Virus record (IMG/VR): IMGVR_UViG_3300025141_000020
Location: 62,001-126,000 of that record
DNA from: a virus
Length of the DNA stretch: 64,000 bases
Direction: 5' to 3' (one strand)
Shown: piece by piece, positions 7,276 to 50,804 of the stretch
Position numbering within the stretch: position 1 is the first letter of the stretch
How the letters are laid out: each line of letters begins with the position of its first letter
Position numbers and translations under genes: made by a program
Notes under the pieces: model-generated
What the model was told of the DNA's origin: nothing
The model's input: only the letters and a program-made list of their open reading frames with translations
Databases searched by the model: none

Positions 7276-7292
7276 CTTTAATAGATAAATAG
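7276..7292 (-). promoter_or_regulatory. AT-rich late-type element, variant
   Basis: Sense strand reads CTATTTATCTATTAAAG, a variant of the recurrent TATTTATAATAAA element, ending 6 nt before the ATG of the 1172-residue protein. An AAGG lies between the element and the start. Confidence 0.4.
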
Positions 7293-7299
7293 TTATTCT

Positions 7300-7334
7300 A
7301 CTAAAACTAATAATAAGTTGTGCTTATTTTTAGT
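7300..7334 (-). other. Imperfect stem-loop between gp6-like gene and next gene
   Basis: The RNA from the minus strand can pair ACTAAAA with TTTTAGT and, inside, ATAAG with CTTAT around a CACAA loop, with a bulge on the 3' side. It sits between the gp6-like stop and the next start. It has no U-tract, so it may be a processing or stability element rather than a terminator; it may also be chance in AT-rich DNA. Confidence 0.25.
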
Positions 7335-7339
7335 AAAGA

Positions 7340-9181
7340 TTATGAGAAAGTTGGTTTCTCTGGTTTTTTGATTCGGATAGCTATATCTTTATTAGGGATT
7401 CTAATTTGTAGTATCTCATTTGGTTGTGCGTAAATAGTGTCGTCAATTAGTTGTATTTCTCTATTTGTCTGTGGTATATAAGGCTGTGTAGATATGGATT
7501 GTGAATACTCCCCACCAACTTTATTAAATACTTTAATATCAACAATATTTATAACACCTGACTGTTCCATAATTAACGCTCTTAAAGAACCTAAGGATAC
7601 ATCAACACCCATTTCAGACCTATCAACATCAAAATAATCACCAACTTTAGTAATAACATTAGTAACTACTTCTCCTTGATTTGTTGATTGTTCTATTATT
7701 AAATCTATGGTAAATCCTATGTCAATAACTTTTGCTGAGCCCACACTAATGTAATCATTTAACATTCTATAATTAGATAAGTAGGTGGCTATATTATTTA
7801 TAAGTGCTTGTGGTACCATAGATGTTAATGCCCCACTTGGTGTGTATGATAATACGTTTAACATCACTTTGTTTTCTATCTCAGTTACTCCAACCTTTGC
7901 TGCTGCACCAAATACTCCTGGCATTGTCCTTACTTTTGATACATAGTCATTTATGGTTACCGCTCTATTTTGAGCTGAAAAATTATATGTTATGTAATTT
8001 CTTATTTCTTCCATAGACATTTGGTCTGCACCACCAATTGCTGCTGTTATATTGGTTACCGATAAACTTTGGTCTACGGATTGATTTATTGCTTGACTTG
8101 GTCCTGCTACCACAAAATCGTAAGTATTTAGTGTGGTTATTGCTCCTGCACCAACATTCGAAGCTTTTCCACCACCAACTCTATATTGTACAAATATGGT
8201 ACTATTAGCTTTAACCATATCACCTAATGCCATATTATTCAAGAATTTAGACATATCTATCTTAACCCCATTTTTACTAAAACTATCTAACAGATTTTGT
8301 GGTGTTTCATTTCCACCCCCAAAAGTTAAATGAAAGAATCCTTCTGGTGTGTATTCTGTTATAAACCTTTGGGTTGCTTTAAGGTATTTACCCACTTTAA
8401 TTCCAACATCATCTTGTGGTGATGATGGGTCAATAACAAACACTTCTTCTTGTGCTAACGCGTCCACTTCATACCATCTGTTAGCGGTATTATCCATAAA
8501 TTCAATATTGGTTGGTAAGCTCTGGTAGCCTGTTCCGTCTTTTTGTATCACAGCTGTAACACCCACTACATTATTTTCTGGTAAAAATAGTTTATAAAAA
8601 GGTTTAGTTAAGACGTCTGTTATTTCTTTTTTGAATACTTTTGTAACCCCGTTTACCGCTAGTACTTTTTTAGTTATAGTATAATTTCTTATAATCCCTG
8701 TAGGGCCTAAGTTAGGTATTTTAGTTCTATTTACAATACCTTCGTTATTGTATTGTGTTGAGAAGTCACAGTCTTCCATTAGTTCGAATATATTCCCACC
8801 ACCTTTAAATTGAGAGCCTCTTCTTAGTAATCCTAGGTATCTAAAGTCTTCTTTGTCCCCCAAGGCTGGAACTATTATCGAGACTTCACAAACAGTCAAA
8901 GATGGTCTATTGCCTGGTATTTTTAACCCATAAGTCCTTGCTAAATTATATAAAGAACTCCTTTCTTGTGCATATTGCAAGACTGTCTCTTGGAAGGTTC
9001 TGTCTATCTGGAAATTTAGGTTGTCGGCTACTGCAGCATTTAAATCTAAAAATACCGAGTACATGGACGCGTCATTTGCGTTTTTAATTAAATCGGGATA
9101 GTATCTGTTAGTTAATCTAACCAGTTCGTTTCTTATCCCTAAGAAATCTCTTTCCGTGTATGCTATTTTTTTATCACTCAT
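7340..9181 (-). CDS. gp6: Baseplate wedge protein, gp6 / baseplate J-like
   Basis: A 613-residue protein (T4 gp6 has 660) matching the wedge component that forms the baseplate inner ring and takes part in the conformational change before sheath contraction. The N-terminus (YTERDFLGIRNELVRLTNRY) and the following helix-rich part with a bound-partner pattern (DNLNFQIDRTFQE) are typical of baseplate J/gp6 proteins. The middle (residues 380-480) has the VTINDYVSKVRTMPGVFGAA segment typical of the J family. It lies 1 nt after gp25 in the same orientation, the T4 pairing. I am sure of the family, less sure of detailed function. Confidence 0.85.
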   Translation of the reverse strand: MSDKKIAYTERDFLGIRNELVRLTNRYYPDLIKNANDASMYSVFLDLNAAVADNLNFQIDRTFQETVLQYAQERSSLYNLARTYGLKIPGNRPSLTVCEVSIIVPALGDKEDFRYLGLLRRGSQFKGGGNIFELMEDCDFSTQYNNEGIVNRTKIPNLGPTGIIRNYTITKKVLAVNGVTKVFKKEITDVLTKPFYKLFLPENNVVGVTAVIQKDGTGYQSLPTNIEFMDNTANRWYEVDALAQEEVFVIDPSSPQDDVGIKVGKYLKATQRFITEYTPEGFFHLTFGGGNETPQNLLDSFSKNGVKIDMSKFLNNMALGDMVKANSTIFVQYRVGGGKASNVGAGAITTLNTYDFVVAGPSQAINQSVDQSLSVTNITAAIGGADQMSMEEIRNYITYNFSAQNRAVTINDYVSKVRTMPGVFGAAAKVGVTEIENKVMLNVLSYTPSGALTSMVPQALINNIATYLSNYRMLNDYISVGSAKVIDIGFTIDLIIEQSTNQGEVVTNVITKVGDYFDVDRSEMGVDVSLGSLRALIMEQSGVINIVDIKVFNKVGGEYSQSISTQPYIPQTNREIQLIDDTIYAQPNEILQIRIPNKDIAIRIKKPEKPTFS

Positions 9182-9182
9182 A

Positions 9183-9647
9183 TTACAAATTTATAATTAC
9201 AAAATCTCTAGCTTCAAAAACACCACTACCAATACTGTAATCAATACGTACCCGTAAAGTGTATTCATTGACTCCGTGTTTTTTATCAGAAAAACTAAAT
9301 GTCTTTTGGTCTCTCGTTGGGTCTTCTTCTTGAATATCTTCTTCTCTTAGGTCTTCAGCAGATTTAATCTCTACATCGGTAATATTTAAATTAGGTATGA
9401 ATTGTTTTACCGCATCTCTAATTTCTAAATCTATAGAAGTTCTGGTTCCTGTATCCAAAGGTTCAAATATATGTTTCATTAAATTTGTTCCGAATTCGGG
9501 TAAAAAATATCTAGAACCTTTTACTGATAAAACTAAATGAACTAAATTAGACCTTACTTCATCTTCTGGCAATTCGTTCATATGTAAAAATAGCCCTTCT
9601 TGACTATCTTTAAATGGGAATGATATACCGTATTTTGGATTGGGCAT
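9183..9647 (-). CDS. gp25: Baseplate wedge protein gp25 (GPW/gp25 family)
   Basis: A 154-residue protein of the gp25/GPW family, which joins the baseplate to the first sheath ring and nucleates sheath polymerisation. Diagnostic is the central stretch GTNLMKHIFEPLDTGTR, containing the family EPL core, followed by helix and strand ending in RVRIDYSIGSGVFEARDFVI. Length is close to T4 gp25 (132). The gene is followed after 1 nt by gp6. An AT-rich late-type element lies 5 nt upstream of the ATG. Confidence 0.88.
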   Translation of the reverse strand: MPNPKYGISFPFKDSQEGLFLHMNELPEDEVRSNLVHLVLSVKGSRYFLPEFGTNLMKHIFEPLDTGTRTSIDLEIRDAVKQFIPNLNITDVEIKSAEDLREEDIQEEDPTRDQKTFSFSDKKHGVNEYTLRVRIDYSIGSGVFEARDFVIINL

Positions 9648-9652: not shown

Positions 9653-9665
9653 TTTATAATAAATA
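9653..9665 (-). promoter_or_regulatory. AT-rich late-type element upstream of gp25
   Basis: Sense strand reads TATTTATTATAAA, one of about sixteen related sites, ending 5 nt before the gp25 ATG. Confidence 0.5.
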
Positions 9666-11808: not shown

Positions 11809-13188
11809 TTAGTTATTTTTATTTATTACTTGTTCTCTTCTTTGTAGAGCTCTGGTGACTCTTTCACGATTTCTATTTGTTTTTTCTTCCTCAAAACCTA
11901 GGAATGTCGAAGTTGCGTCCGTATCTATATCTAGGGTGGCATTATCAAATTTACAATTTTCAAAAACTACACCGTCTTTACCTAGTCTAGATTTAACAAT
12001 CGCGATTGTTGCTAGTCCCATTTCTTTTTGTTGTAATGTTTTAGCTACAGATATGATAACATGACCTACTTGAGCTTTCTTAATTGACCCACCCATTTGG
12101 TCTGTTGTTACAACGTCTGAGGATATAGATGACCTATTACCTTGTGTAGCGGTCCATCCAGCTAAATTTAGTTCGTGACACATACCTTCAAATTTTCTCA
12201 TAACAGACCCTTCACCTTTCCACTCATCATTAAAGCTTCTGTCTGGTATAACACAATCAATATAATCTATAAGAACCATATCTAGTTTTACACCTTCAGA
12301 TATTATTTTACGTACTTGGTTTTTTATTTGTAGCATATTTAATTCGTCAGAAGGTAGTTTTTTTAATATCAGTCTACCACCTGTTTTTTTCATTTCATCC
12401 GCTTTATCCAATACAGTGTCTTTATGTTCACCTAAATCTTGTGAAGGAATCCCGGTCCAACAAGTAAAATGTTTTCTTTGGATTATCTTAGGGTTATCTT
12501 CAAAAAATATTTGTAGTACGTTACACCCCATATTATAAGCTGTATTGGCAAATCTGGTCAATAGTGTAGTTTTTCCTACCCCTGTAGGAGCTAAAATAAC
12601 ACCTATCTCACCTTTAGCTAAACCACCATTTAAAATATTATCTATCCCGTCTATACCAGTAGCTAATGGATGTCTATAATCTTCTTCTAATAATGCTTCT
12701 AGTTCACTGAATATTTCAAAATCTTCATTGCTTAATTCACCTGCACTAATAGCATCCCTAATATATTCTTCACACATATCATAACTCTCAAAGTCACCTT
12801 TTTCCATTATACCTTCCACTTTTCTTATAGCTTTTTTAAGTTCTTGTTGTTTACAAAATTTAATAGCTTTTTCTTTTATAAATAAATGGTCCTCAAATGA
12901 AGCGTCTTTAACTTCTTTTAACATATCAAAAACATATTTTTTTGCCATTTCTGAAGATATCTCAATCCTGGTAAGTTGGTCTAAAGCGTCAAATGATGGT
13001 GAGATTTGATAATTTTGGTAATATTCTTTTACCAACTGCATTATTAATTTAAAATACTGATTATCAAAATATTTTGGTAAAATTACGTCTATTATTGACG
13101 TAAAGAAGGTCTTATCCGTTATTATTAAATTTATTAGTTTTAGTTGGAAGCTGTGTCCCAGGTATCCGAAGTTTTTATTCTCATTCAT
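11809..13188 (-). CDS. Replicative DNA helicase, DnaB / gp41-like
   Basis: A 459-residue helicase of the DnaB/RecA-fold family that unwinds DNA at the fork. The N-terminal third is helical. The RecA core begins near residue 175 (GIDGIDNILNGGLAKGE), with Walker A APTGVGKTT at 200-208 and Walker B LDMVLIDYID near 300, followed by the TQGNRSS and GGSIKKAQ segments of motifs H3/H4. Its length matches T4 gp41 (475). It lies between a FEN nuclease/unknown gene and the reductase. No primase gene is evident in this window, so priming must be encoded elsewhere. Confidence 0.9.
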   Translation of the reverse strand: MNENKNFGYLGHSFQLKLINLIITDKTFFTSIIDVILPKYFDNQYFKLIMQLVKEYYQNYQISPSFDALDQLTRIEISSEMAKKYVFDMLKEVKDASFEDHLFIKEKAIKFCKQQELKKAIRKVEGIMEKGDFESYDMCEEYIRDAISAGELSNEDFEIFSELEALLEEDYRHPLATGIDGIDNILNGGLAKGEIGVILAPTGVGKTTLLTRFANTAYNMGCNVLQIFFEDNPKIIQRKHFTCWTGIPSQDLGEHKDTVLDKADEMKKTGGRLILKKLPSDELNMLQIKNQVRKIISEGVKLDMVLIDYIDCVIPDRSFNDEWKGEGSVMRKFEGMCHELNLAGWTATQGNRSSISSDVVTTDQMGGSIKKAQVGHVIISVAKTLQQKEMGLATIAIVKSRLGKDGVVFENCKFDNATLDIDTDATSTFLGFEEEKTNRNRERVTRALQRREQVINKNN

Positions 13189-13200: not shown

Positions 13201-13214
13201 TTTAAAATAAATAC
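13201..13214 (-). promoter_or_regulatory. AT-rich late-type element upstream of helicase
   Basis: Sense strand reads GTATTTATTTTAAA, a variant of the recurrent element, 12 nt before the ATG of the helicase; AAGGA lies between. This is the only clear case in front of a replication gene. Confidence 0.4.
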
Positions 13215-17122: not shown

Positions 17123-17851
17123 TTAGTCTTCGCCGAAGCTTTGTTTGATTTCAGAATCATTATAATTTTCCACTTCTTCTGGTGTTAAAATATACTCTTG
17201 TTTACCCGTTTTGTCAAAAATTTCTTTTTTATCAACGAAAAAATCTGTTAAGGTGTTGTTAAATGGACCACTATCGTATTTTCTTAAGTCCAGCTTTTCT
17301 TTTGCAGTTCTTGGCCTGTACTTTTCTATCTTATCTTCAAGGTCGGAAATTTTATCTACCATGGTGTCCATAGAACTTAAGTGTTGTTCTAGGTCGTTTA
17401 ATTTATCCATTAGGTCCCCTAACCCCTCAGTGTTCTTTGATAGAATATCTTTTTGTGCTGTAAGTTCATCACTTATCTCATCATCTTTACTAACTAAGTC
17501 AGTAACATCTAATTCGGTTGTATTGTCTGTTGGTTCTTCCATGTCCATCAAATCTTCTTCTCCTTGTTCTTCGTCACCAACAACCACTTCTTCCTCTTCT
17601 GCAGGAAGTTCTCCCATCTCAGCTTCAGGGTCTGCAGATATTTCTACTTCATCTGTTGTTTCGTCTTCTACTGGTTCCTCTACATCTTCTTGTTCACCCA
17701 AATTAATATTAAACTTATTAGCCAATCTTTCTACATGACTTCCCATGCCTAAATTTTCCATCCCCATTGATTCATTTAAATTATCAGCGTTGTGTCTTAA
17801 AGTATTAAATCTAATTAATTCTTCTAATATTTTTCTATCCATCTTAGCCAT
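17123..17851 (-). CDS. Acidic coiled-coil protein, unknown
   Basis: A 242-residue, strongly acidic protein. Residues 54-120 are almost all Glu/Asp, Val and Pro (EEPVEDETTDEVE-type sequence). They are followed by a predicted coiled coil at about 125-175 (DKLNDLEQHLSSMDTMVDKI) and a short basic PRTAKEKLDLRKY. Such composition is seen in scaffold, core and chaperone proteins of phages; a specific role is not readable. Its start overlaps the stop of the preceding 80-residue gene by 8 nt. It lies upstream of the SSB promoter and downstream of an AT-rich late element, so it belongs to the tail module. Confidence 0.6.
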   Translation of the reverse strand: MAKMDRKILEELIRFNTLRHNADNLNESMGMENLGMGSHVERLANKFNINLGEQEDVEEPVEDETTDEVEISADPEAEMGELPAEEEEVVVGDEEQGEEDLMDMEEPTDNTTELDVTDLVSKDDEISDELTAQKDILSKNTEGLGDLMDKLNDLEQHLSSMDTMVDKISDLEDKIEKYRPRTAKEKLDLRKYDSGPFNNTLTDFFVDKKEIFDKTGKQEYILTPEEVENYNDSEIKQSFGED

Positions 17852-18086
17852 TTAATAATTGTTTTACTTTTCCTGAAGGTGATTCAACATTAACCCGTCT
17901 ATTCACTCTGATACTGTTATCAACCCGTTCTATTAAACCATCTCTAGAACGAATGGTATAACATACACCGGTATCTAAGTCACAGACTTCTTTTCCGTCT
18001 TCATTTTGTCCGTGTTCAACTATATTATCCGTCTTTTTACCCATAAAATTTCCTAGTTTTTCTAAAAGTTTGTTGTCTGTAATCAT
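17844..18086 (-). CDS. Small hypothetical protein, tail module
   Basis: An 80-residue protein with two nearby cysteines (VCDLDTGVCYTI) and a basic C-terminal half (RVDNSIRVNRRVN). I recognise no family. It is transcribed just before the acidic coiled-coil gene and overlaps it, suggesting the two products act together. A late-type AT element lies 18 nt upstream of the ATG. Confidence 0.55.
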   Translation of the reverse strand: MITDNKLLEKLGNFMGKKTDNIVEHGQNEDGKEVCDLDTGVCYTIRSRDGLIERVDNSIRVNRRVNVESPSGKVKQLLNG

Positions 18087-18104: not shown

Positions 18105-18118
18105 ATTATATAAATATC
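18105..18118 (-). promoter_or_regulatory. AT-rich late-type element
   Basis: Sense strand reads GATATTTATATAAT, upstream of the 80-residue gene, containing the TATTTATA core. Confidence 0.45.
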
Positions 18119-18141: not shown

Positions 18142-21100
18142 TTAAGAATAATATTTTGGGAACAGAAGTACTGGGTCTAAATAATGTTCTACTATTCTAC
18201 CTTTACTATTTACAACGCCTCTTATAACTTCAACATGTAAGTGAGGCCCTTTAGACATTCCACTATTCCCTAACTTACCTATTTTAGTTTGTTGTAAAAG
18301 AACTGCGGTTGTGTCAAAATTAGCTATGGCATCACCCATAGGTACAATCCCATCTTTCCTTAAGAAACCATATATTACTTTGTAGTAAGCTGTCTCACCT
18401 TCACTAGGGAATTCTAATATATCTTTTTTGGTTATAACATAATTACCGTATTTTCCACAGCCATTATCTTTTTCTTGTGGGTCGCAATCACCTTTTCTAT
18501 CAATAACTATACCAGCCATAATTGGGTGTACTGCTATTCCTTCTGGACTACTTACTTCGTCTGTCTGAGCTGGTATTGGTGTTATATCAATTCCTAAATG
18601 TTTAGTTTTTTCATTTGTGATTTGTTGTGGGTTTACCAAACTTTCGTGGATTGGCGGTTTAAATTCTATTGTATCTGCCGACCAAGGTGTGTTACCTAAA
18701 TCTAAATAACCATTATCTTCTGGTGTTAATTTTAATTGTTTTGGTGTTGCGTTATTATCATCGTAGAACACATTTTCAATCTTTTCTTGTAATTTAGTTT
18801 CTGCTGCAGCATACAGTTTTTCATTAACCCTTTGTACTAAATCTGTTATATTTGGTAATTTAGGTATTGGTACTCTTACCCCTTCAAAACTTGTTTCTAT
18901 GCTATTAGGTGTTATATTATGTTCTACATTTATGATTAGGTAAGGCCCATTAAACATTGGTAGGTATCTTAATTGAAAATATTGTGTTGGTTGTATGGTC
19001 ACGTTACCCACACAACTAACTTTCGCTGTGTAAGACCTACTTGCGTACACATTATAGAGTGATGATGATGCCATACTTGTAGAGCCAGCACCACCAGAAT
19101 CGGCCATTTGTTGTAATATTTTATAACTCTCAGAAGTATTTTGGAATTGTTCTTGGTCAAGAGTTATGGATTCGAACATATTTTGGTTTGGTATACCAAA
19201 GTCCACTGTAAAGCCCATAACTTTATTAGATAGTTTTTTATCTCCACAGTCTGGTCCAGCTAGTGGGTTGTTACTTACTAAGTTTAACGCAAATCCATCA
19301 TTTGCATAACCATTATTAGGAGCTTTATTGTTTAACTGAGATGATGGTTTACCTACATACTGACATAAGAATACCGGTGAAGAATCTAGGTAATCTACTG
19401 TTTTGAATGTGCCAAACATAGCGTTACCTTGTTTCTGTGAATTATCGTTACCAACACTATAAAAGTTTATGTAAGATGGTAAGGGTATATAGTTAAAATA
19501 ATTATTTGCTAAAATTGTACTTATATAACTAGAAATACTCTGTGTTAATGTTTTATCGTTACCAGCATCAAACGGTGTATCAAGTTTTATTATGTCCCAT
19601 ATATTAATAATTGCTTGGTCCCCAATATCTTTATTTGCTCTATCAAAAAATAAGAATCTTTGGAATAGTGTTTGGCTTTGTAATTCCAGACCTGAAATCC
19701 ATCTGTCATTAAGTGTTTTAAACTGATTATATAGGTCTAATTTTAAATCGTCCCCTTCTATGCTGGTTCTGCTATCAGCCATATCTTCATTTGTAGTTTC
19801 TTTGTCGTCACTAATATTATCATTATTTGTTTTTACTAGTTGGTCTATATATAGGACTTCTTTTGACCTTAGGTTATCCAAATTAGTCATAAATGTTTGT
19901 AAGTAAGTGCTAGCTGGTATCATACCGTTAAGTGAACAGTGGGTCGCGTACAACCTTATAAATGGAGCAAATCCTTGTATGTTTTCGGAATTAAATGCAA
20001 TTCCATTATTTTTAATTGTGTTAAAAAAGTTTAATATTGGGTTTGCTAATGTATTTGATGTTAACATCATAAATTGAGTGTCGAACTGCGAGTAGTATTC
20101 TCCTACAAATAGTGCTACATCATTATATTCTTGAGACCCAACTACCGGTGGTATAGTTGTGGCGTCTAACGCCCCAAAATTGTATTCGTCATTTCCCGAT
20201 TCAATATCTTTTAATTTCTGTATTAATGTTGAGTTATTTACTACCTCACCTAAATTTGTTGTGGTCTTGTGGATATAACTCATTTTCATATTTAAGAATT
20301 TACCCATCACTTTTCCAAATTTCTTAAGTTGTGCTTTGGCAAGTAACCCTTCTAATCTAGTTACTGATTCTGGGTTTTCTACCCATTTTTTCTCAATAAC
20401 AGTAATATCTTGAATAATTTGTTTCATGCTACCTCCTAAGTTTGCGTCCCCGTCTACACTTGAGAACTTTAAGAATAGAGATTCGAAGAAATCTAATTGT
20501 TCTTTATTAAACACTCCCCTCAATTCGTCTATTGTGGAATAATCTGTAGATGGGCTTAACTCCCAAGAAATTTGTTTATTTTGTGTACTATCTATCCGTT
20601 TAAAGTAATTGTTTGGTAGTGGTCTGTAACTTGCGTTATGAGCAAAATAACCGTAGTTTGACATGCCCCACAACATCCTACACCCACCGTTATTTAAAGC
20701 GGTTACTTGTGGTGAAGAATAACTATCAATATCAGTATCTATTAAAGCACCTGAAGATGGGTATAAAATATAATATTCACGACCTCCACCTGCTGCACCT
20801 AATAGTGGGTTGGTTATGTTGCCAGAGTCTAGAGAAACGTCAAAAAACTTAAAGTTACTATTACTTGTTGTTATATTTGTATTTTGACTTATTGTAAGTG
20901 GTGCTCCCACTCCAATTATATCATTTAAATTTGTTACAATATTTGACATTATTTGTCCGGAAGCAATGTAGTGTACAGAAGTTATTATCTCTTGGTACAC
21001 CCCAAAATTAGTGGTAGAACCATTATAGTTTAGAGATGGCCCACCCGTACTATCTGTATAAGTAAATGACGCGTTTATGTTACCACCAAGTGGGTCGTAG

Positions 21101-33648: not shown

Positions 33649-34476
33649 TTAAATTCTTGATATTGGTTTAATAACCTGTTTCATTTTTTTGATGTCTTCC
33701 TGAATCAGTCTTTCCCTTTTATCTTCTTTGGTTTCTTCTATATTCTCAGAATCATGAATATGGTCATAATGCATGTCATCTTCTAAATCGTCTATATGAT
33801 ATTCACTGCCCCCATCATGTTTTAAGTCATAAAGTTCTTTGTCGTCATGACCTTCGTCTCTACCGTAATTCATCGCTTCATCATGACCAGAATCTTCTTT
33901 AACTTCTTTAGAAGCTTTTTTCATTGACTCTTTCTTGTCTCCATCACCATCAAGGTCTAAAAAATCCGGTTTTACACCTTCTTCTAATTCTGGATAAGGT
34001 AAATCGTCAGAAACATCTTCATAACTTCTAGGGGTTCTTTGTGATGAACCTGACCCTATTAATTCTGCTGTATAAGTCATAAAGTTTCCTAATTTAGTGA
34101 TTGAGTTTGCTAACTTTCTTCTAGTATCACTATCCTTAATCATGTCATAAGCTTTCTTGATACCATTAATAACGTTTTCTATACCTTCACCTGCGGCAAC
34201 CCCAGGATTTCTATTGTACATTCCTTGTTCCATGATAGTATCAGTATAGTCCTTAATGTTTAAATCTAGATTTTCTTTAACGATAGCTTTACGAATCAGT
34301 CTAAATGCATCACTAATTACAGATTCTACCATAACAGGATTATTAACTTTACCCAACAACCTTTCTAGTTGTTCCTCACTAATAATCACATTCTGTTTTT
34401 TTCCTTCAGTAAAAGTTTTTTTACCACTTAATTGTGACTGGATTGTTTCACTTAACGTTTTTTTATTAAATTTCAT
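33649..34476 (-). CDS. Acidic virion-associated-type protein with EF-hand-like loop
   Basis: A 275-residue protein, basic in its first 45 residues and very acidic, His/Asp-rich in the last 110. Near residue 172 it carries DFLDLDGDGDKKES, a 12-residue Asp-rich loop of the EF-hand/dockerin type able to bind calcium. The segment NVIISEEQLERLLGK near residues 28-43 resembles segments in three other proteins here. I do not recognise the whole protein. It is placed between tail sheath and HAD gene, has a late-type AT element and ends at a strong terminator. A role in the virion or its assembly is inferred. Confidence 0.6.
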   Translation of the reverse strand: MKFNKKTLSETIQSQLSGKKTFTEGKKQNVIISEEQLERLLGKVNNPVMVESVISDAFRLIRKAIVKENLDLNIKDYTDTIMEQGMYNRNPGVAAGEGIENVINGIKKAYDMIKDSDTRRKLANSITKLGNFMTYTAELIGSGSSQRTPRSYEDVSDDLPYPELEEGVKPDFLDLDGDGDKKESMKKASKEVKEDSGHDEAMNYGRDEGHDDKELYDLKHDGGSEYHIDDLEDDMHYDHIHDSENIEETKEDKRERLIQEDIKKMKQVIKPISRI

Positions 34477-34487: not shown

Positions 34488-34497
34488 TTTATAAATA
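34488..34497 (-). promoter_or_regulatory. AT-rich late-type element
   Basis: Sense strand reads TATTTATAAA, 11 nt before the ATG of the Ca-loop protein gene. Confidence 0.4.
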
Positions 34498-34546: not shown

Positions 34547-37500
34547 CTAAATGTCCTCAAATGATGCCCCTGTAGGTGTTACTAAGAACTCAACAAAAAT
34601 GTATTCTAATGCTCTGGTAGGTTTAATGTATATTTTACCACTCATTTCATTTCTATCTATTTCTTCTGGGTCACTCGAAAGTACTACTCTAAAGTCAGTT
34701 AACCCTCTATCTCTTCTAATAGAATCTAATATTGGATTTACTAAATCTAGGAATTGTTGTCTTACTATGTCGTCATTTTGTTCAAATATTAACCTTACTG
34801 AAACAGCTGATATTAATTTTCTGGTTTGTAATAACAATCTTCTAACATTAATTCTATCTAAAGCAGATTCTTTAAGTTGTAGTGTTTTATTACCCCAAAT
34901 AATTGGTCCTACATCACTAAAGGTTGCGATAGGATTAAGTCTACCAACATATAACGTATCTCTTTCATCTAAAGTTAACTTCTTTCTAGCTTTAACAGCG
35001 TTTACAACACCTCTAGTATAACCAGCCGAAGCAAACCACGGGAATGATACATTATCAGTTAATGCTATATTTCTCATAACTTCTGCCGTTGGTGGTATAA
35101 AGATTTGTTTGTTATTTGCTGCGTCTCTTATTTGTATCCATGGGTAATAAGTGGCTGTATAATTTGAGTCTAGTAATGAGTCTTCCATTCCGTCTACAGC
35201 TTCCTCTGGACTTATCATATTAGTAGCGTCAGTAGTGTTTGCAACAAACATATTATAATCTGGTGTTGTTGTTACATATAATGAATCAGCTCTTTCGTCC
35301 TCAATCATATCAATAGTTTCGTTGACTAGCCCTAAATTATCCACATAATTAATCCCTGGTGTTGCGAAAACATTAATGTCTACAGCTTCTGGATTACTAA
35401 ACGTGTTAATACCTCTTAAGTATGCGTAATAATCTGTGTTAGCTTCAGTACTACTTAGTTTCTTAAATGACCCGTCTCCTACACCAGCAAATTCTGATGT
35501 CGGGCAAGTTCCGTTTAAGAACCCGGTTAATCCCATTCTGTAATCGTCAGTGTTAGACCTTGTTTTTCTATATATATCCCATCCATCGAACCCACCATGT
35601 GGTAATACTGTCCATTTACGAGCTCTTAATTTTTTATATGGGTCCGTACTTAGGGTTGGTTCTGTTCGGAATGTCGCAACCCCACACTGGAATACAGATT
35701 TATTATTTAGTGTTGTTGATGACCAAGATATATATGTCCCTATACCACCTCTAATAACTGTTGCTCCAGAGTCCATATGGAATCCTTGTGTTATTGTATC
35801 CCAGTCTGTACCTTCTGTTCCAGTACATATAGTAGGTGGTTGTAATGATTTATAATCAAAGAAATCGGTGTCGTATCCCACTCCCGCTGAATTACTTATA
35901 CCTAGATAAACTTTTGATAGTTTGTCTCCACCACTTAGAACTTTATTATTCCCTGTACCTGAACCGAATGGTGGGTCATAAATCGCTTCACCCGGAGTAA
36001 AATACTTAGTTTTATAATTTATCCAAGGGTTGAGTGAACAATTATAGGTTCTAAATCTATATCCTTCAAAACCACAAGGTAATGAGCCTACGTAAGTACC
36101 GTCTAGTACACCGTCTCCTAAAAATAACATAATATATTTAGACTTTAACTCAAACTCACCAGTAGAAGTACCTACTTTTCTACCCACAAAAGAAACTTTC
36201 GTTGGGTCCATACTACATCTAGTAAATTTCTCTAACACATTAGGTGCTGCATCACTATCATAGAAGTCTCTAACTAAAATATCAAACTCTCCTCGTTCAA
36301 AAGATAGGTTAGCAAATGATATTTTTACTTCTCTGTTTGCTGAAGTTCCGTCGGATATTGAAACGCATTTAAATAGTCTGAACACGTCAGTACCTTGTAA
36401 TTCAGATACAATCCATGGTGTCTCTGGTGTTCTCCATTCATTCATCTTCCAAGCGATTGTATGTGTGTTTGTCGTTGCTCTTGCTGATGGCAAATATTGT
36501 AAACAACATTGTAACCCTCTAACCTTACCTTTATTCCATAAGTCTTTTAATAATACCGGATAAGTTTCTTCAATAAACAATGGAACATCCTCTTTCTTTT
36601 TATCAAAAGGACTAACCCCAAATACCTTAGACACATAATCTTTAGATGTGTTAGTCATGGAAGTTTTAAATGTATATATGTTTCCAGCCGCTGTTTGTGC
36701 ACTAATTCCAAATGGCTTAAATGGGTCTTCTAATACATCCGCATAAGTTCCTGAACAATCAAAAGTAGTTGTGTCAGCAGTAAGTTCATAAACTGGACCT
36801 CCTGATGATGTAGTACTTATACCCCTGGACCTAAGTGTTGCTACGACAACTCCATCATATTCAGTGTAAGCTGGAACATCACTATATAGTTCTACATTCA
36901 CAGTACATGTTGCTGAATAAACTACTGTTCCTGATAACGCTCCTGCTGTAGAGTCTGTAGTTCCAGTCCCTCCAGAGTAAACAGTTCCTCCGGAATAATT
37001 CCCATGAGTGTCCGCTGATAGTCCCCCGTGATATAATTGATATGACATACCACTATAGGTTCCTCCACTACAACAATCGCTATTTGAGTATGTAAATAAC
37101 CCATAGTACCAAGGGTCATTTTTATATGATGTGTAATCTGTGCAGTCAGTACTTAATCTGTCTGTTATTACTTGTGTTGTGTAACCACTAGTATTTCCAG
37201 TCGCTATTGTGGTTGCTGACGATGTCATACAACCATATTGGTATATTCCTCCATTGTATGCCCAACAACTGCCTGTTGTTGCGGAACAAGTTGCGTTATA
37301 TGCATGATTGGTATTCGTTACAGTGGCTGTTATCCAGGTTATTAAATCTGCGTTAAGTGTTGGTAATGTGGAACCGTTATTTAATGTAATTGTAGATGTA
37401 GCGAAACTAGTGTCTACTATAGGTAAAGTTTGTATTGTTGATAATGTACCGTCAGTGTAAACATCTGACCCTAAAGCTGTACCACTACTACCAGTAATTG

Positions 37501-37942
37501 GTACAAATATATTAAAGAAAGCCGAATAAGCAGTGTCCGTACCTCCAGTATTCCCAACCGTACCACCAGTAGCTACACTAAACTGAGAAGAATCTAAACT
37601 CCCTAAAGTTTTTATAGACCATGATGGTCCTGCGTCAAAACCACTAAGACCTAACACTCTTGTTACAAATAGTTGATTTGATTGACTTAGGTATGATTTT
37701 GATATGTACCCTAATTCGTATTTAGGTATTTGTGAACCTACATATTTTGTTGGCGATGTACCACCAAAACGTGTTATGAAATCATCGTATGATTGTATGA
37801 AAATTGGTTCGAAGGCTGGCCCTTTTAATGCCTCACCTACTAACCCTAATGTTGTAACACCAACACTTTGTGCTACAAATGTTAAATCTTTCTCTGACGT
37901 ATATACACCAGGAGAAACAAATACTTTATTACCGTCTGCCAT
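34547..37942 (-). CDS. gp18: Tail sheath protein, gp18-like, enlarged
   Basis: The 1131-residue contractile sheath subunit. The N-terminus VSPGVYTSEKDLT, followed by VAQSVGVTTLGLVGEALKGP and FGGTSP, is diagnostic for phage sheaths. The C-terminus holds the polymerising domain (INVRRLLLQTRKLISAVSVR, then RQQFLDLVNPILDSIRRDRG and RALEYIFVEF). T4 gp18 has 659 residues. The extra length is mainly a Ser/Thr/Gly/Cys/Tyr-rich stretch at about 120-410 with many CC and CxxC-like pairs, probably an outward-facing insertion. Late-type AT element upstream and hairpin downstream. Confidence 0.9.
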   Translation of the reverse strand: MADGNKVFVSPGVYTSEKDLTFVAQSVGVTTLGLVGEALKGPAFEPIFIQSYDDFITRFGGTSPTKYVGSQIPKYELGYISKSYLSQSNQLFVTRVLGLSGFDAGPSWSIKTLGSLDSSQFSVATGGTVGNTGGTDTAYSAFFNIFVPITGSSGTALGSDVYTDGTLSTIQTLPIVDTSFATSTITLNNGSTLPTLNADLITWITATVTNTNHAYNATCSATTGSCWAYNGGIYQYGCMTSSATTIATGNTSGYTTQVITDRLSTDCTDYTSYKNDPWYYGLFTYSNSDCCSGGTYSGMSYQLYHGGLSADTHGNYSGGTVYSGGTGTTDSTAGALSGTVVYSATCTVNVELYSDVPAYTEYDGVVVATLRSRGISTTSSGGPVYELTADTTTFDCSGTYADVLEDPFKPFGISAQTAAGNIYTFKTSMTNTSKDYVSKVFGVSPFDKKKEDVPLFIEETYPVLLKDLWNKGKVRGLQCCLQYLPSARATTNTHTIAWKMNEWRTPETPWIVSELQGTDVFRLFKCVSISDGTSANREVKISFANLSFERGEFDILVRDFYDSDAAPNVLEKFTRCSMDPTKVSFVGRKVGTSTGEFELKSKYIMLFLGDGVLDGTYVGSLPCGFEGYRFRTYNCSLNPWINYKTKYFTPGEAIYDPPFGSGTGNNKVLSGGDKLSKVYLGISNSAGVGYDTDFFDYKSLQPPTICTGTEGTDWDTITQGFHMDSGATVIRGGIGTYISWSSTTLNNKSVFQCGVATFRTEPTLSTDPYKKLRARKWTVLPHGGFDGWDIYRKTRSNTDDYRMGLTGFLNGTCPTSEFAGVGDGSFKKLSSTEANTDYYAYLRGINTFSNPEAVDINVFATPGINYVDNLGLVNETIDMIEDERADSLYVTTTPDYNMFVANTTDATNMISPEEAVDGMEDSLLDSNYTATYYPWIQIRDAANNKQIFIPPTAEVMRNIALTDNVSFPWFASAGYTRGVVNAVKARKKLTLDERDTLYVGRLNPIATFSDVGPIIWGNKTLQLKESALDRINVRRLLLQTRKLISAVSVRLIFEQNDDIVRQQFLDLVNPILDSIRRDRGLTDFRVVLSSDPEEIDRNEMSGKIYIKPTRALEYIFVEFLVTPTGASFEDI

Positions 37943-37977: not shown

Positions 37978-37992
37978 TTTATTAATAAATAC
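37978..37992 (-). promoter_or_regulatory. AT-rich late-type element upstream of tail sheath
   Basis: Sense strand reads GTATTTATTAATAAA, 35 nt before the sheath ATG. Confidence 0.45.
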
Positions 37993-38022: not shown

Positions 38023-38038
38023 GATGTATAAATACATC
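38023..38038. promoter_or_regulatory. Perfect palindrome, possible operator
   Basis: GATGTATAAATACATC is a 7+2+7 inverted repeat, 63 nt upstream of the small RHH-like regulator gene and between it and the divergent sheath promoter region. Dyad sites of this size are typical for dimeric ribbon-helix-helix repressors; binding is inferred. Confidence 0.45.
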
Positions 38039-39341: not shown

Positions 39342-39857
39342 TTATATTCCGTCAAATTCATTCTCACTAACAAATGAACATTTTATTGTTCTGTAGAAAG
39401 CTTTATACCCACCTATTGTGTGCACATTATCAGATGTAACCCTACCATCATCTGTGACGACATAATATCTCATTCTTTCTTCTGTTTCATTATACCCAAT
39501 ATAATCTCCATAATTTATATCTATGTCTAATTCCTCTAAATGTTTCATGTACACGCTAAAAGTTAAATTCCCTGGTTCCATTTGATTTACAAGTCCCGAA
39601 GCATAACTTTTATTTTGTGCTTCTGATATATCAACATAACCTTTAATTTCCACCGGAGCTTTATATCTAATTTCCTCTTTGCCAGCTTCACCATAAACAT
39701 CGTCAACATCACTAAGTTTTTTATCCACTCTAAATAAAACCAAAGTAAAATGCATGTCGCCATGCAACCACTCCATTCCAATATTTTGTTCTAAAGCAAA
39801 ATCTTCTGAACCAAAAAATTTAGATATTCTTGTTATAGGTACTTTTTTATTACTCAT
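39342..39857 (-). CDS. Neck / head-tail connector-like protein
   Basis: A 171-residue protein with a recognisable phage-neck style: LVLFRVDKKLSDVDDVYGEA, then PVEIKGYVDISE and LTFSVYMKHLEELDIDINYG followed by DYIGYNETEERMRYYVV. I recall similar proteins next to tail completion genes in marine T4-like phages but cannot name a T4 homologue with certainty (gp14 or an adaptor are candidates). It is first in its minus-strand unit with the gp15-like gene and is preceded by a consensus late-type AT element. Confidence 0.5.
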   Translation of the reverse strand: MSNKKVPITRISKFFGSEDFALEQNIGMEWLHGDMHFTLVLFRVDKKLSDVDDVYGEAGKEEIRYKAPVEIKGYVDISEAQNKSYASGLVNQMEPGNLTFSVYMKHLEELDIDINYGDYIGYNETEERMRYYVVTDDGRVTSDNVHTIGGYKAFYRTIKCSFVSENEFDGI

Positions 39858-39869: not shown

Positions 39870-39882
39870 TTTATTATAAATA
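39870..39882 (-). promoter_or_regulatory. AT-rich late-type element upstream of neck gene
   Basis: Sense strand reads exactly TATTTATAATAAA, 12 nt before the ATG. It lies back to back with the host-type promoter of the SNF2 helicase. Confidence 0.55.
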
Positions 39883-41673: not shown

Positions 41674-41687
41674 TATTTATAATAAAA
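41674..41687 (+). promoter_or_regulatory. AT-rich late-type element
   Basis: Reads TATTTATAATAAAA, 9 nt before the ATG of the next gene. Confidence 0.55.
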
Positions 41688-41696: not shown

Positions 41697-42311
41697 ATGG
41701 GCAAAAAAGAACTAACAAAAAAACAACTTAAAAAAAGTCTTAAAAATATAACCGAGGGTTCTGTTCAAATGAAGGGCCATTTAAAAACGGCATATAACGC
41801 AATAAAAAAGTTAGATAAAATATCGGTAGGCCAAAAAATTAAAAATAATAAAGGTGATAATGTAACTGTAACACCAAAAGATAATGATAAAATTCTTGCA
41901 GCAATGAGAAAAGTAGAGGATATATATAGAGATATTATTGGTGGTGAGATAAAAGATAAGGAGGATAAGGATGAAAAAGAAAAAGCTACAGAGGTAACAG
42001 CTAAAAATGAAAAATCTGAAGGTCACGGAAAAATGCCGAGTGAGGTTGTTGGTGAAAATACCGTTAAACTATCGCAAAAGAAATTAAATTCTATCATAAA
42101 AAGAGTAATTATAGAAAGAAAGAAACAACTTAATGAGCAAGCAGAAAAAGCGTCCCCAGTATCGAGATTGATATACGATGCACAACAAATGGCTAAATGG
42201 GCAGATGAGGCTGGTGGAGCAGTATCATTTGATGAGTCGTTATTACAAGATGGTGAATTTAATAAACTTGTGGTGAGGATTAAAGATGCAATTAATGATG
42301 TTAAACTATAA
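41697..42311 (+). CDS. Lysine-rich hypothetical protein, late expressed
   Basis: A 204-residue protein, very Lys/Glu-rich with helical stretches (TKKQLKKSLKNITEG, then KDKEDKDEKEKATEVTAKNE). Near residue 123 it contains VKLSQKKLNSIIKRVIIERK, similar to the SExQxxxL segments in other proteins of this window. No family recognised. It forms a single-gene unit with its own late-type AT element and terminator, like the tail tube gene. That suggests an abundant late product, perhaps a virion-internal or scaffold protein, but this is inference. Confidence 0.6.
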   Translation: MGKKELTKKQLKKSLKNITEGSVQMKGHLKTAYNAIKKLDKISVGQKIKNNKGDNVTVTPKDNDKILAAMRKVEDIYRDIIGGEIKDKEDKDEKEKATEVTAKNEKSEGHGKMPSEVVGENTVKLSQKKLNSIIKRVIIERKKQLNEQAEKASPVSRLIYDAQQMAKWADEAGGAVSFDESLLQDGEFNKLVVRIKDAINDVKL

Positions 42312-42380: not shown

Positions 42381-42395
42381 GTATTTATATAAAAA
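42381..42395 (+). promoter_or_regulatory. AT-rich late-type element upstream of neck protein
   Basis: Reads GTATTTATATAAAAA followed by GGA, 9 nt before the ATG; between the terminator and the neck gene. Confidence 0.5.
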
Positions 42396-42404: not shown

Positions 42405-43529
42405 ATGCCAGTAACAATTGACCCAATAAAAAGAGAAAAATTATTTACTCAAGTAAAGCATTTATTAGGTGCTCCCTTAAGAGGGGTTGAGCTTGAGGAT
42501 GAAATGTTAGATACGGCTATAGAATTAGCTGTTCTTGATTATGGCCAATATGTTCAGGATTGGTTGATAGAAAACCAATGGTCTGCTCTATATGGTCAAG
42601 ACCTAGATGTTATTTCTTTAACTAACGCTTTTTTAACTAGGGACTTAAGTTTTGAAACGTCCTTTACTTATGCCTATTCCAAGATAGTGGGGTTACAAGC
42701 TGGTGGAGGTTATGAGTTAAAACGAGACTTTGTAGATTTAGTTACAAACCAACAAATATATACAATACCAGCTGGAAGAGAAATAAATGAGGTTTTATGG
42801 TACACAAGAGCTGAACTAAATGAAGCCTTTATAGACCCATTTTTAGGTGGTTTCGGTGGTCTAGGTGGTAACTTGGGTATGGGTGGTGCTCAAATGGGAA
42901 TGCAAGGTTCTTACTTTATGATGCCAGCTTTTGACATATTACTAAGAATGCAGGATAGAAATTTAAAAAATAGGATGATTGGTGGTGACATGACTTATCG
43001 GATTACTGCTGGAGCTGGTGGTATTCATGGAGAAAAATTCTTACACCTTTACAATGTTCCTGGTGGAAGATTTGATTTTGGTAATATTATGACCAACCAA
43101 CACAGAGTTTGGTATTGGTATTATGATTCCGGCCCTGAGACTAGGAACGAATGTTTGTTAGCTAATAAAGATATTGTTCTTTTACCCAGTGATGTGACAT
43201 TAGATGAAATGTCTTATGGTGACCTTAATGCCCCAGCACAATCGTGGGTTAGAAAATACTTTTTTGCTAAAGCTAAGGAGATGTTGGGTCGTGTTCGTGG
43301 TAAATTTTCCGGAGCTTTAAAGACCCCGGGAGCTGAATTAACTCTTGAGTATGATGCTTTATTGTCAGAGTCAAAAGATGAGGTAGCTAAACTAGTAGAA
43401 GAACTTACCCTAAGACTAGAGAGATTAAGAAATGATAAAATGTTAGAAAGAAAAGCTCTTGAAGCTGAAAACTTAAATAAGTCACTTGGGTTTAGACCAA
43501 TGAACCCAGGAACAATATTCACAATATAA
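42405..43529 (+). CDS. Neck protein, gp13-like
   Basis: A 374-residue protein resembling head-completion/neck proteins of T4-like phages (T4 gp13 has 309). Features are an N-terminal helical region (DEMLDTAIELAVLDYGQYVQ), a beta region around FVDLVTNQQIYTIPAGREIN, a Gly/Met-rich flexible loop at about 145-170 (GGFGGLGGNLGMGGAQMGMQ), and a C-terminal helix pair (VRKYFFAKAKEMLGRVRGKF) ending in a coiled coil with many Leu/Glu/Arg. The GG/M-rich loop is unusual. It is paired with a fibre-like protein 1 nt downstream. The gp13 call rests on memory of family style and is moderate. Confidence 0.58.
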   Translation: MPVTIDPIKREKLFTQVKHLLGAPLRGVELEDEMLDTAIELAVLDYGQYVQDWLIENQWSALYGQDLDVISLTNAFLTRDLSFETSFTYAYSKIVGLQAGGGYELKRDFVDLVTNQQIYTIPAGREINEVLWYTRAELNEAFIDPFLGGFGGLGGNLGMGGAQMGMQGSYFMMPAFDILLRMQDRNLKNRMIGGDMTYRITAGAGGIHGEKFLHLYNVPGGRFDFGNIMTNQHRVWYWYYDSGPETRNECLLANKDIVLLPSDVTLDEMSYGDLNAPAQSWVRKYFFAKAKEMLGRVRGKFSGALKTPGAELTLEYDALLSESKDEVAKLVEELTLRLERLRNDKMLERKALEAENLNKSLGFRPMNPGTIFTI

Positions 43530-47330: not shown

Positions 47331-47711
47331 TTAACAAGGAGATTTTACAAATGAGTCGGAAACAGTTATAAATAGGTCTTCTCTTATTGGGACTATCAAT
47401 TCTGTATTATCTGAATGAAAATATATTATAAATTGCCCTTCGTATCTACCTACTTTATTGACATTGTTTTTAGTCCATTTATAATATATGTAATATTCAG
47501 TAGGGGCGTTTGGTGTTGTTGGTACTTTAGATACTATATAAGCCTGTTTATTGGCAACCTTCAGTATGCCGGTATCAACACTTTTCATTGAGAAGTATAT
47601 TGTGGAATTAGCTAACTTATTATGAAAGTTATTAAAGTCATTTCTTCCGTCTAATACTAATTGCATCTTTAGTATCGGGTCTGTTGAGTCTTTTCTTATA
47701 AAAAATTCCAT
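47331..47711 (-). CDS. Small virion protein, BppU-N-like fold
   Basis: A 126-residue protein of beta-strand pattern: IRKDSTDPILKMQLVLDGRN, then STIYFSMKSVDTGI, EYYIYYKWTKNN and GRYEGQFIIYF. The style recalls the N-terminal domain of baseplate upper (BppU) proteins that hold receptor-binding proteins, though I would not insist on it. It lies directly downstream of the 1002-residue cysteine-rich virion protein and has its own consensus late-type AT element. Confidence 0.55.
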   Translation of the reverse strand: MEFFIRKDSTDPILKMQLVLDGRNDFNNFHNKLANSTIYFSMKSVDTGILKVANKQAYIVSKVPTTPNAPTEYYIYYKWTKNNVNKVGRYEGQFIIYFHSDNTELIVPIREDLFITVSDSFVKSPC

Positions 47712-47721: not shown

Positions 47722-47734
47722 TTTATTATAAATA
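47722..47734 (-). promoter_or_regulatory. AT-rich late-type element
   Basis: Sense strand reads exactly TATTTATAATAAA, 10 nt before the ATG of the 126-residue virion protein. Confidence 0.55.
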
Positions 47735-47740: not shown

Positions 47741-50700
47741 TTAACAAGAACTGTCACATGCGTTTGGACAACACGATAACCAAGCTGGGTTTGTATCTGG
47801 TGCACCATATTGTGCGAAGTCAGAACATTGGAAATACCCACCAACATTCATTGTACCACATAAGTAACAACAACCATTATAGATTACGTTATCATTTTCT
47901 TGGTAGTTTATGAACGCGCTGTTGTACTCACCTCCTGACCAACCATATGAACTAGTGTTTAGTTGAGCTGGGTTTATCAGGCCGTTTATGTTGTTAGTTG
48001 CACATACATCACAACTACTTAAACAACAACTATAATCTGTACCCCCCCAAATGTTAGAACAGTCTGATGTTGCTATTGGGTTATATCCAAAAGAACTGGC
48101 GTCTGTACATCCTGATATGGATGTAAGTGGTGTGTAGGTACAACAACTATAATTTGTACCACCAATAGTACTAATACAATCGCAAGTCGCTTCATTATTA
48201 TAATTAAGTGCCGTTATATCCGTACATCCAGAAATACATACACCTGCTCCACCATATTCACAACAGTGTGTACTACTTCCACCCCCAACACCCCAACAAT
48301 CACATGTTGCGGCACCATTATAGTTAGATGCTGTTACATCCATACAACCAGGTACACAAGGTGGGTCAAAAATACAACAACTAATATCATAACCACCATT
48401 GTTATAGTTTACACCATTACAATCACAATATGGGTCAATATTAGCGTTACCACCCACACCATAATTAACAGCGGTATAAGCCATACAACCACTAGGACAA
48501 ATGGTGTCACATCCTGGACCCAAATACTCAGTACATAAACAACAATTTTCAAAAGCTGTACCCACTGAAAGTTCATCCCATTCACCAACCCAAGCAAAGT
48601 CACCTGAATTATTCCATGGTAATGTTCCTCCTGGACTATTTGAATAGTATCCCCCACTACTTGACGTCATATTTACAATATTAGTAGACGTTGTTGCGGT
48701 TAACCCCAAATAAGTAAAACACGCCCAACTACCATATAGGTCTGGGTCAGAAATTTTAGTTAGATAAGCCCCACCTAAACTAGTCCCTACTGTTGGTTGT
48801 CCTACTGAGTCCCAGAATAAGTTACTGTTATTAGTGTTACAAGGCTCAAACTCATTGTACCCTGGTAAAGTATCGTCAAGAAATACAATTTCGGTGACAC
48901 CTGAAAATATTTGCTCTAATGTTCCTCCAGAGTTTTGGCCTTCAGTCTCATTCCACTGCACAGAGCTACAGTAACTCCACATATGTAAATAACAGTTTTG
49001 TGGTTCTGGTGGTGGTTCTCCTGTTGGTACTGGTAATTCACAATCTCGACAACCTCCTGGACAATTCTTACATTCCTCACAATCAATTAGCGAATACCTT
49101 TCTTTATTTATTAAAAAATTATGATATACCTCATCAGCTGTTAGAGGTTTAATATAATACATCATTTGTGATATTCCCCCTATAAATGAACCAGCAAAGA
49201 ATTGTGATATTAGGTCGTTATCCTGTAGTACTGGTTTTTTGTTCTCTCTATATCCCCACGCTCCACCACCCCAAGACATATTATACGACACGCCAAATTG
49301 GCTTTCTGGTGTTTGATTTGTATGCCTAGGTATTATTTCTTCGTAGTCATTAACTGTGTGTACAATTCTACCATTTACATAGAATTTAAGTGTACCCATT
49401 CTCAAGTCTTTATCTGTAAACCAATGATATATGGTATTTGCGGAACAATATAGATTAAGTTTTCCTGGAATAAAGGTGTCACATATATTATTAGCGGAAT
49501 AAGGGTAGGTTCCAGTTATTAAGTCGTTAATACCACCCTTATTTAATAAATCACAATCTTCTAAATATATATTTCGGTCAAATACAACATCTACTTGTAT
49601 CCACGTATCAGCACAATTACCACTTAGTTCTGTAATAAAGGGGCAAATTGGTTCGGAATAAGATTCTTCTAACCCCCAACCGCAAGTCCATTGGGAGTTG
49701 GGGTTACATTCCCCACTCGTATCAATACAATCACCAGTATACCTTAGAGTCCTATAACCAATCCTCATATCGTCAGTTATTCTAAACCCTAAAACATTAC
49801 TATAGACATCTGTGGTTTGACCTTCTCTCAATCCTTTAAAAAAGAAAAATCCTGAATTATTTGTTACACCAGTGATTATACTACTTGAGTTCTTCCAGCT
49901 ATAATTCGTTAAGTTGTGAGGCATGGTGTCGCTCATACTATTAGGTGGGGTGTTACTGCATAATGTTGTTGAGCTTATCCCATTATATCCACTAGCGTTA
50001 TAACAGTTCTGTAATTGGTATCCTATGGTATTCAGTTTTAAATAACTGCTAAATGACCATCCTTTATTTGGTCTGGTAGGTAATACCTCATAATCATATC
50101 CGTGTAGTTTATAGAATCCTTGGTAAAACCCTCCTTTTAACTCTTGGTAATATCCTGAACTATCGTAAGCATTCATTATTGACGTGTCGGTAAAATAAGA
50201 GATTCCTGTTAATGGTAGGCCATATCCTTTAACCTGACTCATTTTAAACCTTTTATCAAAATGTAATTTGTTAAATGTGGATGCTATAGGTATTTGTTTG
50301 TAAATCTCTACACAATCAGATGGGGGGAGAAGTTGCACATTGGCTATATTAATATCATTATATAGTCCATTACTTCTAGCTGTCTCTGCTATTATTAAAT
50401 CACATTTTTTATCCACAGTTATACCACTACAATCACATACTGTTTTTGCACTTAACCAGGTAAATTTACTTAATATTGTAAAAGGTTCTGATGTTTGTGG
50501 TGATGCTGAAAGTACTGGATATTGGGTGAAACATGTTGTTATTGGTTGAGATGAACTGTCTGAGTCATTTAAGTCTATTAGTACTGGTAATACTGTAGTA
50601 TCACCTAACCCTATGATGTTGTTTGACCAAACCACTTCTGTATTAAAATCCTTTTCATCGGACACTAAAAAGAAGTCATAGTAGGAGCTATAGTTTAATT

Positions 50701-50749
50701 TAGCGTCAATCCTATTAAAATTATAATTGTTTAAATTTTGTGTTCCCAT
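47741..50749 (-). CDS. Large virion surface protein with LamG-like region and cysteine repeats
   Basis: A 1002-residue protein, probably a fibre or adhesin. Residues about 330-560 resemble a concanavalin/laminin-G sandwich (TWIQVDVVFDRNIY, LKFYVNGRIVH, FAGSFIGGISQMMYYIKPLT). A Cys-Pro stretch (CEECKNCPGGCRDC) follows. Residues about 750-911 hold four tandem modules of about 35-45 residues with the core GC(T/M)D-x-A-x-NYN-x-A and a closing CC, for example GCTDITALNYNNEATC and GCMDVTASNYNGAATC. Modules of this type occur in secreted Bacteroidota proteins. The C-terminal 90 residues are also cysteine-rich. No signal peptide is present. A receptor-binding role is inferred. Confidence 0.72.
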   Translation of the reverse strand: MGTQNLNNYNFNRIDAKLNYSSYYDFFLVSDEKDFNTEVVWSNNIIGLGDTTVLPVLIDLNDSDSSSQPITTCFTQYPVLSASPQTSEPFTILSKFTWLSAKTVCDCSGITVDKKCDLIIAETARSNGLYNDINIANVQLLPPSDCVEIYKQIPIASTFNKLHFDKRFKMSQVKGYGLPLTGISYFTDTSIMNAYDSSGYYQELKGGFYQGFYKLHGYDYEVLPTRPNKGWSFSSYLKLNTIGYQLQNCYNASGYNGISSTTLCSNTPPNSMSDTMPHNLTNYSWKNSSSIITGVTNNSGFFFFKGLREGQTTDVYSNVLGFRITDDMRIGYRTLRYTGDCIDTSGECNPNSQWTCGWGLEESYSEPICPFITELSGNCADTWIQVDVVFDRNIYLEDCDLLNKGGINDLITGTYPYSANNICDTFIPGKLNLYCSANTIYHWFTDKDLRMGTLKFYVNGRIVHTVNDYEEIIPRHTNQTPESQFGVSYNMSWGGGAWGYRENKKPVLQDNDLISQFFAGSFIGGISQMMYYIKPLTADEVYHNFLINKERYSLIDCEECKNCPGGCRDCELPVPTGEPPPEPQNCYLHMWSYCSSVQWNETEGQNSGGTLEQIFSGVTEIVFLDDTLPGYNEFEPCNTNNSNLFWDSVGQPTVGTSLGGAYLTKISDPDLYGSWACFTYLGLTATTSTNIVNMTSSSGGYYSNSPGGTLPWNNSGDFAWVGEWDELSVGTAFENCCLCTEYLGPGCDTICPSGCMAYTAVNYGVGGNANIDPYCDCNGVNYNNGGYDISCCIFDPPCVPGCMDVTASNYNGAATCDCWGVGGGSSTHCCEYGGAGVCISGCTDITALNYNNEATCDCISTIGGTNYSCCTYTPLTSISGCTDASSFGYNPIATSDCSNIWGGTDYSCCLSSCDVCATNNINGLINPAQLNTSSYGWSGGEYNSAFINYQENDNVIYNGCCYLCGTMNVGGYFQCSDFAQYGAPDTNPAWLSCCPNACDSSC
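48015..48500 (-). repeat. Four tandem coding repeats, GCTD/CC modules
   Basis: Four protein repeats at roughly 120-nt spacing within the 1002-residue virion protein. Each has GC-(T/M)-(D/A), NY(N/G) or GYN, a D-C or C-D-C and a terminal CC. DNA copies are diverged, so the repeat is old or under protein-level selection rather than a fresh duplication. Confidence 0.75.
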
Positions 50750-50761
50750 TATTAATAAATA
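50750..50761 (-). promoter_or_regulatory. AT-rich late-type element, divergent pair member
   Basis: Sense strand reads TATTTATTAATA immediately before the ATG of the 1002-residue protein; a further overlapping TATATTT lies just upstream. The divergent gene has its own copy. Confidence 0.4.
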
Positions 50762-50790
50762 TAAATGTAATACTATTTAATTCTTATCGA

Positions 50791-50804
50791 TATTTATAAT
50801 AAAA
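50791..50804 (+). promoter_or_regulatory. AT-rich late-type element, divergent pair member
   Basis: Reads TATTTATAATAAAA, 5 nt before the ATG that opens the five-gene cluster. Confidence 0.55.

Follow-up and report, generated by a model that had tools for sequence, protein, structure and literature searches.

The window, the whole stretch of 64,000 nucleotides analyzed here, comprises bases 62001-126000 of the 210,568-bp virus record IMGVR_UViG_3300025141_000020 and has a G+C content of 33.5%. It carries a T4-like contractile tail module with gp25-like and gp6-like wedge proteins, hub, tail tube and sheath, and also encodes a DnaB-like helicase, a ribonucleotide reductase and a family B DNA polymerase. 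Among named phages, the tail tube has its best matches, at 36-44% identity, in Microcystis phage Mel-JY01, Rhodothermus phage RM378 and Flavobacterium phage immuto, and at least 597 relatives of this protein were found in IMG/VR. The virus belongs to a large, uncharacterised group of marine phages, the hosts of which are probably Bacteroidetes. A 2019-aa protein encoded at 18142-24201 on the minus strand has a sole match, which is short, C-terminal and endolysin-like.

The original prediction placed a recurrent AT-rich element in front of genes at 16 sites of the window, and the motif was found at all 16 of them on the predicted strand (Table 1). The common core is TATTTAT at 15 sites, while site 31638 reads TATTTACAATTA and contains TATTTAC; since the latter recurs before many orthologues of the hub gene, it represents a genuine variant. 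A 17th sense TATTTAT, the second of the sheath gene, was absent from the earlier list. The 13-mer proposed as the shared element does have six exact copies in the window, as claimed, and 11 in the whole record compared with none for the reversed control, and TATTTATWWTAA was observed 8 times with 0.62 expected. However, only the 7-mer TATTTAT forms the conserved core; the AATAAA tail of the 13-mer consists of a looser A/T spacer followed by an A-rich, initiator-like stretch. Measured from the 7-mer, the closest ATG lies at 5 nt, and the zero spacing described for two sites was not recovered. Among genes with an assignable function, the statement that nearly all copies stand before structural genes largely holds, but the DnaB-like helicase (site 13207) and several genes without a named function carry the box as well. 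Outside the window, a pattern search and short loci yielded six further TATTTATAATAA matches in the record; an ATG reading frame follows five of these and lies 11-13 nt past the box in four cases.

Table 1. Copies of the box in the window, with the distance from the end of the box to the start codon of the downstream gene
Box	Position	Strand	nt to ATG	Downstream gene and remarks
TATTTAT	7285-7291	-	15	3751-7269 (1172 aa)
TATTTAT	9659-9665	-	11	9183-9647, baseplate wedge gp25-like (PF04965, E=2.5e-11)
TATTTAT	13207-13213	-	18	11809-13188, DnaB-like helicase (phrog_19, E=6e-58)
TATTTAT	18110-18116	-	23	17844-18086 (80 aa)
TATTTAT	30678-30684	-	16	28475-30661 (728 aa); kept in 39/39 orthologues
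TATTTAC (variant)	31646-31652	-		30864-31616, hub; common to many orthologues
TATTTAT	32327-32333	-	59	31779-32267, tail tube; kept in 50/50 orthologues
TATTTAT	33225-33231	-	exactly 5	32359-33219; predicted leaderless mRNA; spacing 5 in 20/21 boxed orthologues
TATTTAT	34491-34497	-	14	33649-34476 (275 aa)
TATTTAT	37985-37991	-	42	34547-37942, tail sheath
TATTTAT (second of sheath gene)	38028-38034	-	85	34547-37942, tail sheath
TATTTAT	39876-39882	-	18	39342-39857 (171 aa); 17-19 or 4-6 nt in orthologues
TATTTAT	41674-41680	+	16	41697-42311 (204 aa)
TATTTAT	42382-42388	+	16	42405-43529, head-tail adaptor-like
TATTTAT	47728-47734	-	16	47331-47711 (126 aa)
TATTTAT	50755-50761	-	exactly 5	47741-50749 (1002 aa); predicted leaderless mRNA
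TATTTAT	50791-50797	+	12	50810-51706, first gene of a rightward run to 63113

Sense TATTTAT was detected in 15 of the 25 upstream regions of the window and antisense TATTTAT in 4, and in 1000 dinucleotide shuffles the number of upstream regions with the motif had a mean of 2.24 and a maximum of 7. Its density upstream of genes is 9.25/kb in sense and 2.31/kb in antisense orientation, whereas the coding sequences of the window contain 0.13/kb and 0.25/kb, respectively. Densities, antisense counts and shuffles agree that the motif is clearly not as frequent inside genes or the wrong way round, an outcome that would have spoken against the original prediction.

To extend the analysis, 774 kb of DNA from 50 non-redundant loci, i.e., the window and 49 relatives, were compared, a sample built around the tail module. 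Upstream of genes in this set, TATTTAT ranks first among all 7-mers with 256 occurrences vs. 50.8 expected (~5-fold), and 243 of the 407 upstream regions contain it in sense as compared with 82 in antisense. It was present in 62/62 inspected upstream regions of tail-tube genes, the flanking DNA of which varies between groups. By orthologous family, the presence of the box is nearly all-or-none: 50/50, 39/39, 21/22, 19/23 and 28/38 members have it in some families, and 0/33, 0/23, 0/16 and 0/10 in others. The element is thus a conserved, oriented and gene-specific signal. The low G+C content of the window, together with 25.8 chance matches to the 13-mer expected at up to two mismatches, might have suggested a mere by-product of AT-rich intergenic DNA, but counts of the box surpass those in the shuffles and in the antisense control, it outranks all other 7-mers, and its presence is tied to particular orthologous genes. 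A composition artefact was therefore rejected, and we assign it next to no probability.

In an alignment of 221 deduplicated sites, no -35 signal was detected, all positions from -50 to -6 relative to the box carrying at most 0.27 bit; the base preceding the box is rarely T (4%), and a peak of A (84%) occurs 12 nt past the first T of the box. The distances from box to ATG fall mainly into three groups of 4-6, 11-21 and 31-43 nt, which largely reflect a small number of repeatedly sampled gene families, and range overall from 5 to 73 nt between families. Each gene family has its characteristic distance, which is 5, 12-20 or 31-43 nt. The lack of a -35 element and these family-specific distances are consistent with a -10-type promoter and not with a ribosome-binding signal, and the element is very likely a promoter of this type. 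No site has its ATG 0-3 nt past the box, while 22 sites have it at exactly 5 nt. The family of 32359-33219 keeps the arrangement TATTTAT-N5-ATG with spacer letters that vary somewhat, and that of 39342-39857 has two spacing states (Table 1). From the empty 0-3 nt zone, and because the A peak falls on the A of the ATG in the 5-nt class, we infer that transcription would start at this peak, and the TATTTAT-N5-ATG genes are probably leaderless.

Two functions had been proposed originally, a late promoter with almost leaderless mRNAs or a translation signal that replaces Shine-Dalgarno and acts on the mRNA near the start codon. The latter would fit the scarcity of Shine-Dalgarno-like sequences, which precede just 2-3% of the genes in the window and its relatives, the response of Bacteroidetes ribosomes to A-rich upstream bases (PMC6847099), and the location of many boxes 5-20 nt from the ATG. 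A low Shine-Dalgarno frequency is expected for Bacteroidetes (PMC6847099). However, the orthologous families have neither a fixed short distance to the start codon nor a box before most genes: the box is invariant while the distance runs from 5 to 73 nt between families, and it is never present in several of them. In Mel-JY01, TATTTAT stands ~30-45 nt upstream of several ATGs, with separate GGAG-type sites in between, and is therefore apparently distinct from ribosome binding. Moreover, the box would lie outside the mRNA if transcription starts 5-7 nt past it. We thus regard a translation signal as highly improbable; the variable spacing of an invariant box, the box-free families and the layout in Mel-JY01 instead support the late promoter with almost leaderless mRNAs.

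A candidate for the reader of this promoter is encoded outside the window, at 137007-137708 of the record. This gp55-like protein of 233 aa (phrog_234, E=4.4e-5) has homologues in immuto, RM378, Mel-JY01 and LR756508, and in a profile-profile alignment it matched T4-type gp55 over residues 1-120 with a probability of 94.7% (E=6e-8). The match is restricted to the sigma-2 region and the homology is remote. In Pfam the protein remained below the cut-off, Foldseek listed sigma factors first but none with a significant E-value, and a search with phrog_12791 gave T4 as the sole match. T4 gp55 inserts A-12, A-9 and A-8 into pockets, where Tyr97 stacks on A-12, Asn13 helps to hold A-9 and Thr99 contacts A-8 (PMC7892883). 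When the T4 box and TATTTATA are overlaid in an assumed register, A-12 is kept in TATTTATA, and Tyr97 corresponds to an invariant Tyr in the gp55-like family. Asn13 is not kept, and the A-9 position is T in the box; Thr99 is not kept either, although A-8 remains. A change of T4 His95 as the cause of the new box was considered and dropped, because Phe likewise occupies this position in cyanophage gp55, the box of which is normal.

The record encodes a second phage sigma factor, an RpoD-like protein of 266 aa (L119:1072-1872, ~26.0-26.8 kb of the record and outside the window; PF04542, E=2.6e-18; phrog_351, E=1e-55). As phage sigmas of this kind can redirect host RNA polymerase, the box might be a phage promoter read by the RpoD-like protein, or by the host's own sigma, and not by the gp55-like protein. 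However, both the box and the gp55-like gene are present in immuto and Mel-JY01, whereas a PF04542 search of their entire records found no match; this makes the gp55-like protein the more likely reader. The primary sigma of a Bacteroidetes host reads TTTG/TANNTTTG (PMC6847099), the box also occurs in a Microcystis phage, and a -35 signal is absent. Recognition by one of these other sigmas is accordingly rather unlikely.

Unlike the Bacteroidetes primary promoter, TANNTTTG with an upstream TTTG, TATTTAT has no TTTG ending and no -33 partner and is shared with a cyanobacterial phage. The same phages probably use this host-type promoter for other genes. Words within TATCTTTGTAGT are over-represented upstream of genes in the clade (774 kb, 50 loci), which suggests that genes outside the late set have host-type promoters and that the host belongs to the Bacteroidetes. 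In the window, a Bacteroidetes-type TAnnTTTG promoter word (TATCTTTG) is located at 33264-33271 on the plus strand, upstream of the small plus-strand ORF 33363-33614.

The T4 late promoter, TATAAATA, is read by RNA polymerase carrying gp55, with gp33 and the sliding clamp gp45 assisting. That the core of the element is the reverse complement of the T4 box is correct. Since the T4 box is nearly palindromic, however, taking its reverse complement amounts to changing just the two central bases, which are TT here and AA in T4, and TATTTATA placed on TATAAATA agrees at 6 of 8 positions. Given this near-palindrome and the encoded gp55-like sigma, the element is probably related to the T4 late promoter after all, contrary to the earlier view that it is not simply that promoter. 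A flipped T4 promoter firing in the opposite direction is not needed as an explanation, as the two central changes yield an identical string and the genes are oriented as expected for the sense reading. Both systems have a single -10-like AT box without a -35 element, mostly before virion genes, and a phage-encoded sigma of the gp55 kind. They differ in that some genes here look leaderless, in the length of the sigma (185 aa in T4 gp55 vs. 233 aa), and in its C-terminus, where the clamp-binding end of T4 gp55 is absent and a different conserved domain takes its place. Searches for a gp45-type clamp with PF02916 and phrog_223 identified only that of T4 among five phages, although a very divergent clamp could escape them. 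It is possible that the gp55-like sigma acts independently of a clamp.

Related late boxes of cyanophages and CBB/GAP32-type phages (NATAAATA, ATAAATA) are linked to gp55 and have been predicted upstream of structural genes on the basis of sequence (PMC2984593, PMC5259590). These have the T4 orientation, whereas the sense form here is TATTTAT, the Microcystis phage included. A sense TATAAATA/NATAAATA box was not supported in the 407 upstream regions, where TATAAAT occurs 61 times in sense vs. 178 times in antisense. Relative to T4, the element is a variant of the gp55/late-promoter kind that is newly seen here; in the literature searched, the coverage of which is incomplete, neither a description of this promoter for TATTTATA, RM378, immuto or Mel-JY01 nor any published promoter for this phage group was found.

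In immuto, 18 of 46 head and tail genes have the box upstream but only 1 of 46 in a region of small hypothetical genes (Fisher p=1.2e-5). This gene content suggests late use. The promoter is likely to act late and to depend on the gp55-like sigma; some replication genes are boxed too, which counts against this reading. The same box occurs in phages of both Flavobacterium and Microcystis and hence tracks the phage lineage rather than the host. In RM378 (L103), TATTTAA precedes 10 of 57 called genes in sense vs. 3 in antisense and is possibly the form of the same box in this phage; as RM378 also has a gp55-like homologue, this would be in keeping with a drift of the box. LR756508 has a homologue as well, yet none of the genes in the 40 kb examined had TATTTAT upstream.

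We consider it likely that the box is the -10-like element of late promoters in this phage and its clade, and that it is read by the host core RNA polymerase with the gp55-like sigma, some of the mRNAs being leaderless. The element would consist of TATTTAT, ~5 A/T bases and an A, lack a -35 element as in T4, and be recognized in sense orientation by the host polymerase core together with a strongly diverged phage relative of gp55. Transcription would most likely start on the A, ~5-7 nt past the box. An ATG located 4-6 nt past the box would then give a leaderless mRNA, the commonest class would have leaders of ~6-16 nt, and another class leaders of ~26-38 nt. More tentatively, a gp55-derived sigma lineage that is widespread in marine Bacteroidetes phages and extends to the Microcystis phage may have switched from TATAAATA to TATTTAT and swapped the clamp linkage for a C-terminal domain of its own; transcription would start close enough to the gene that late mRNAs either lack a leader or have one of ~6 nt or more, intermediate lengths being rare, and the family of 39342-39857 would switch between these states.

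Such a promoter would provide a transcription rule, with a candidate sigma, for an abundant marine phage group, and a natural experiment on how a sigma-2 domain alters -10 specificity. It would also make it possible to test for conserved leaderless late mRNAs in hosts without Shine-Dalgarno signals. With immuto, a cultured model carrying the box is at hand. Between 50 and 100 kb of the immuto genome (L108), another upstream word dominates, TATATTTAGGT with TAATTAAA, which is perhaps an early promoter of this phage. Directly after the gp55-like gene, this phage, immuto and Mel-JY01 encode a small helical protein of 116-134 aa (L115:2133-2516, L114:2221-2571, L292:2232-2636), which had no family match and could be a partner of the gp55-like sigma.
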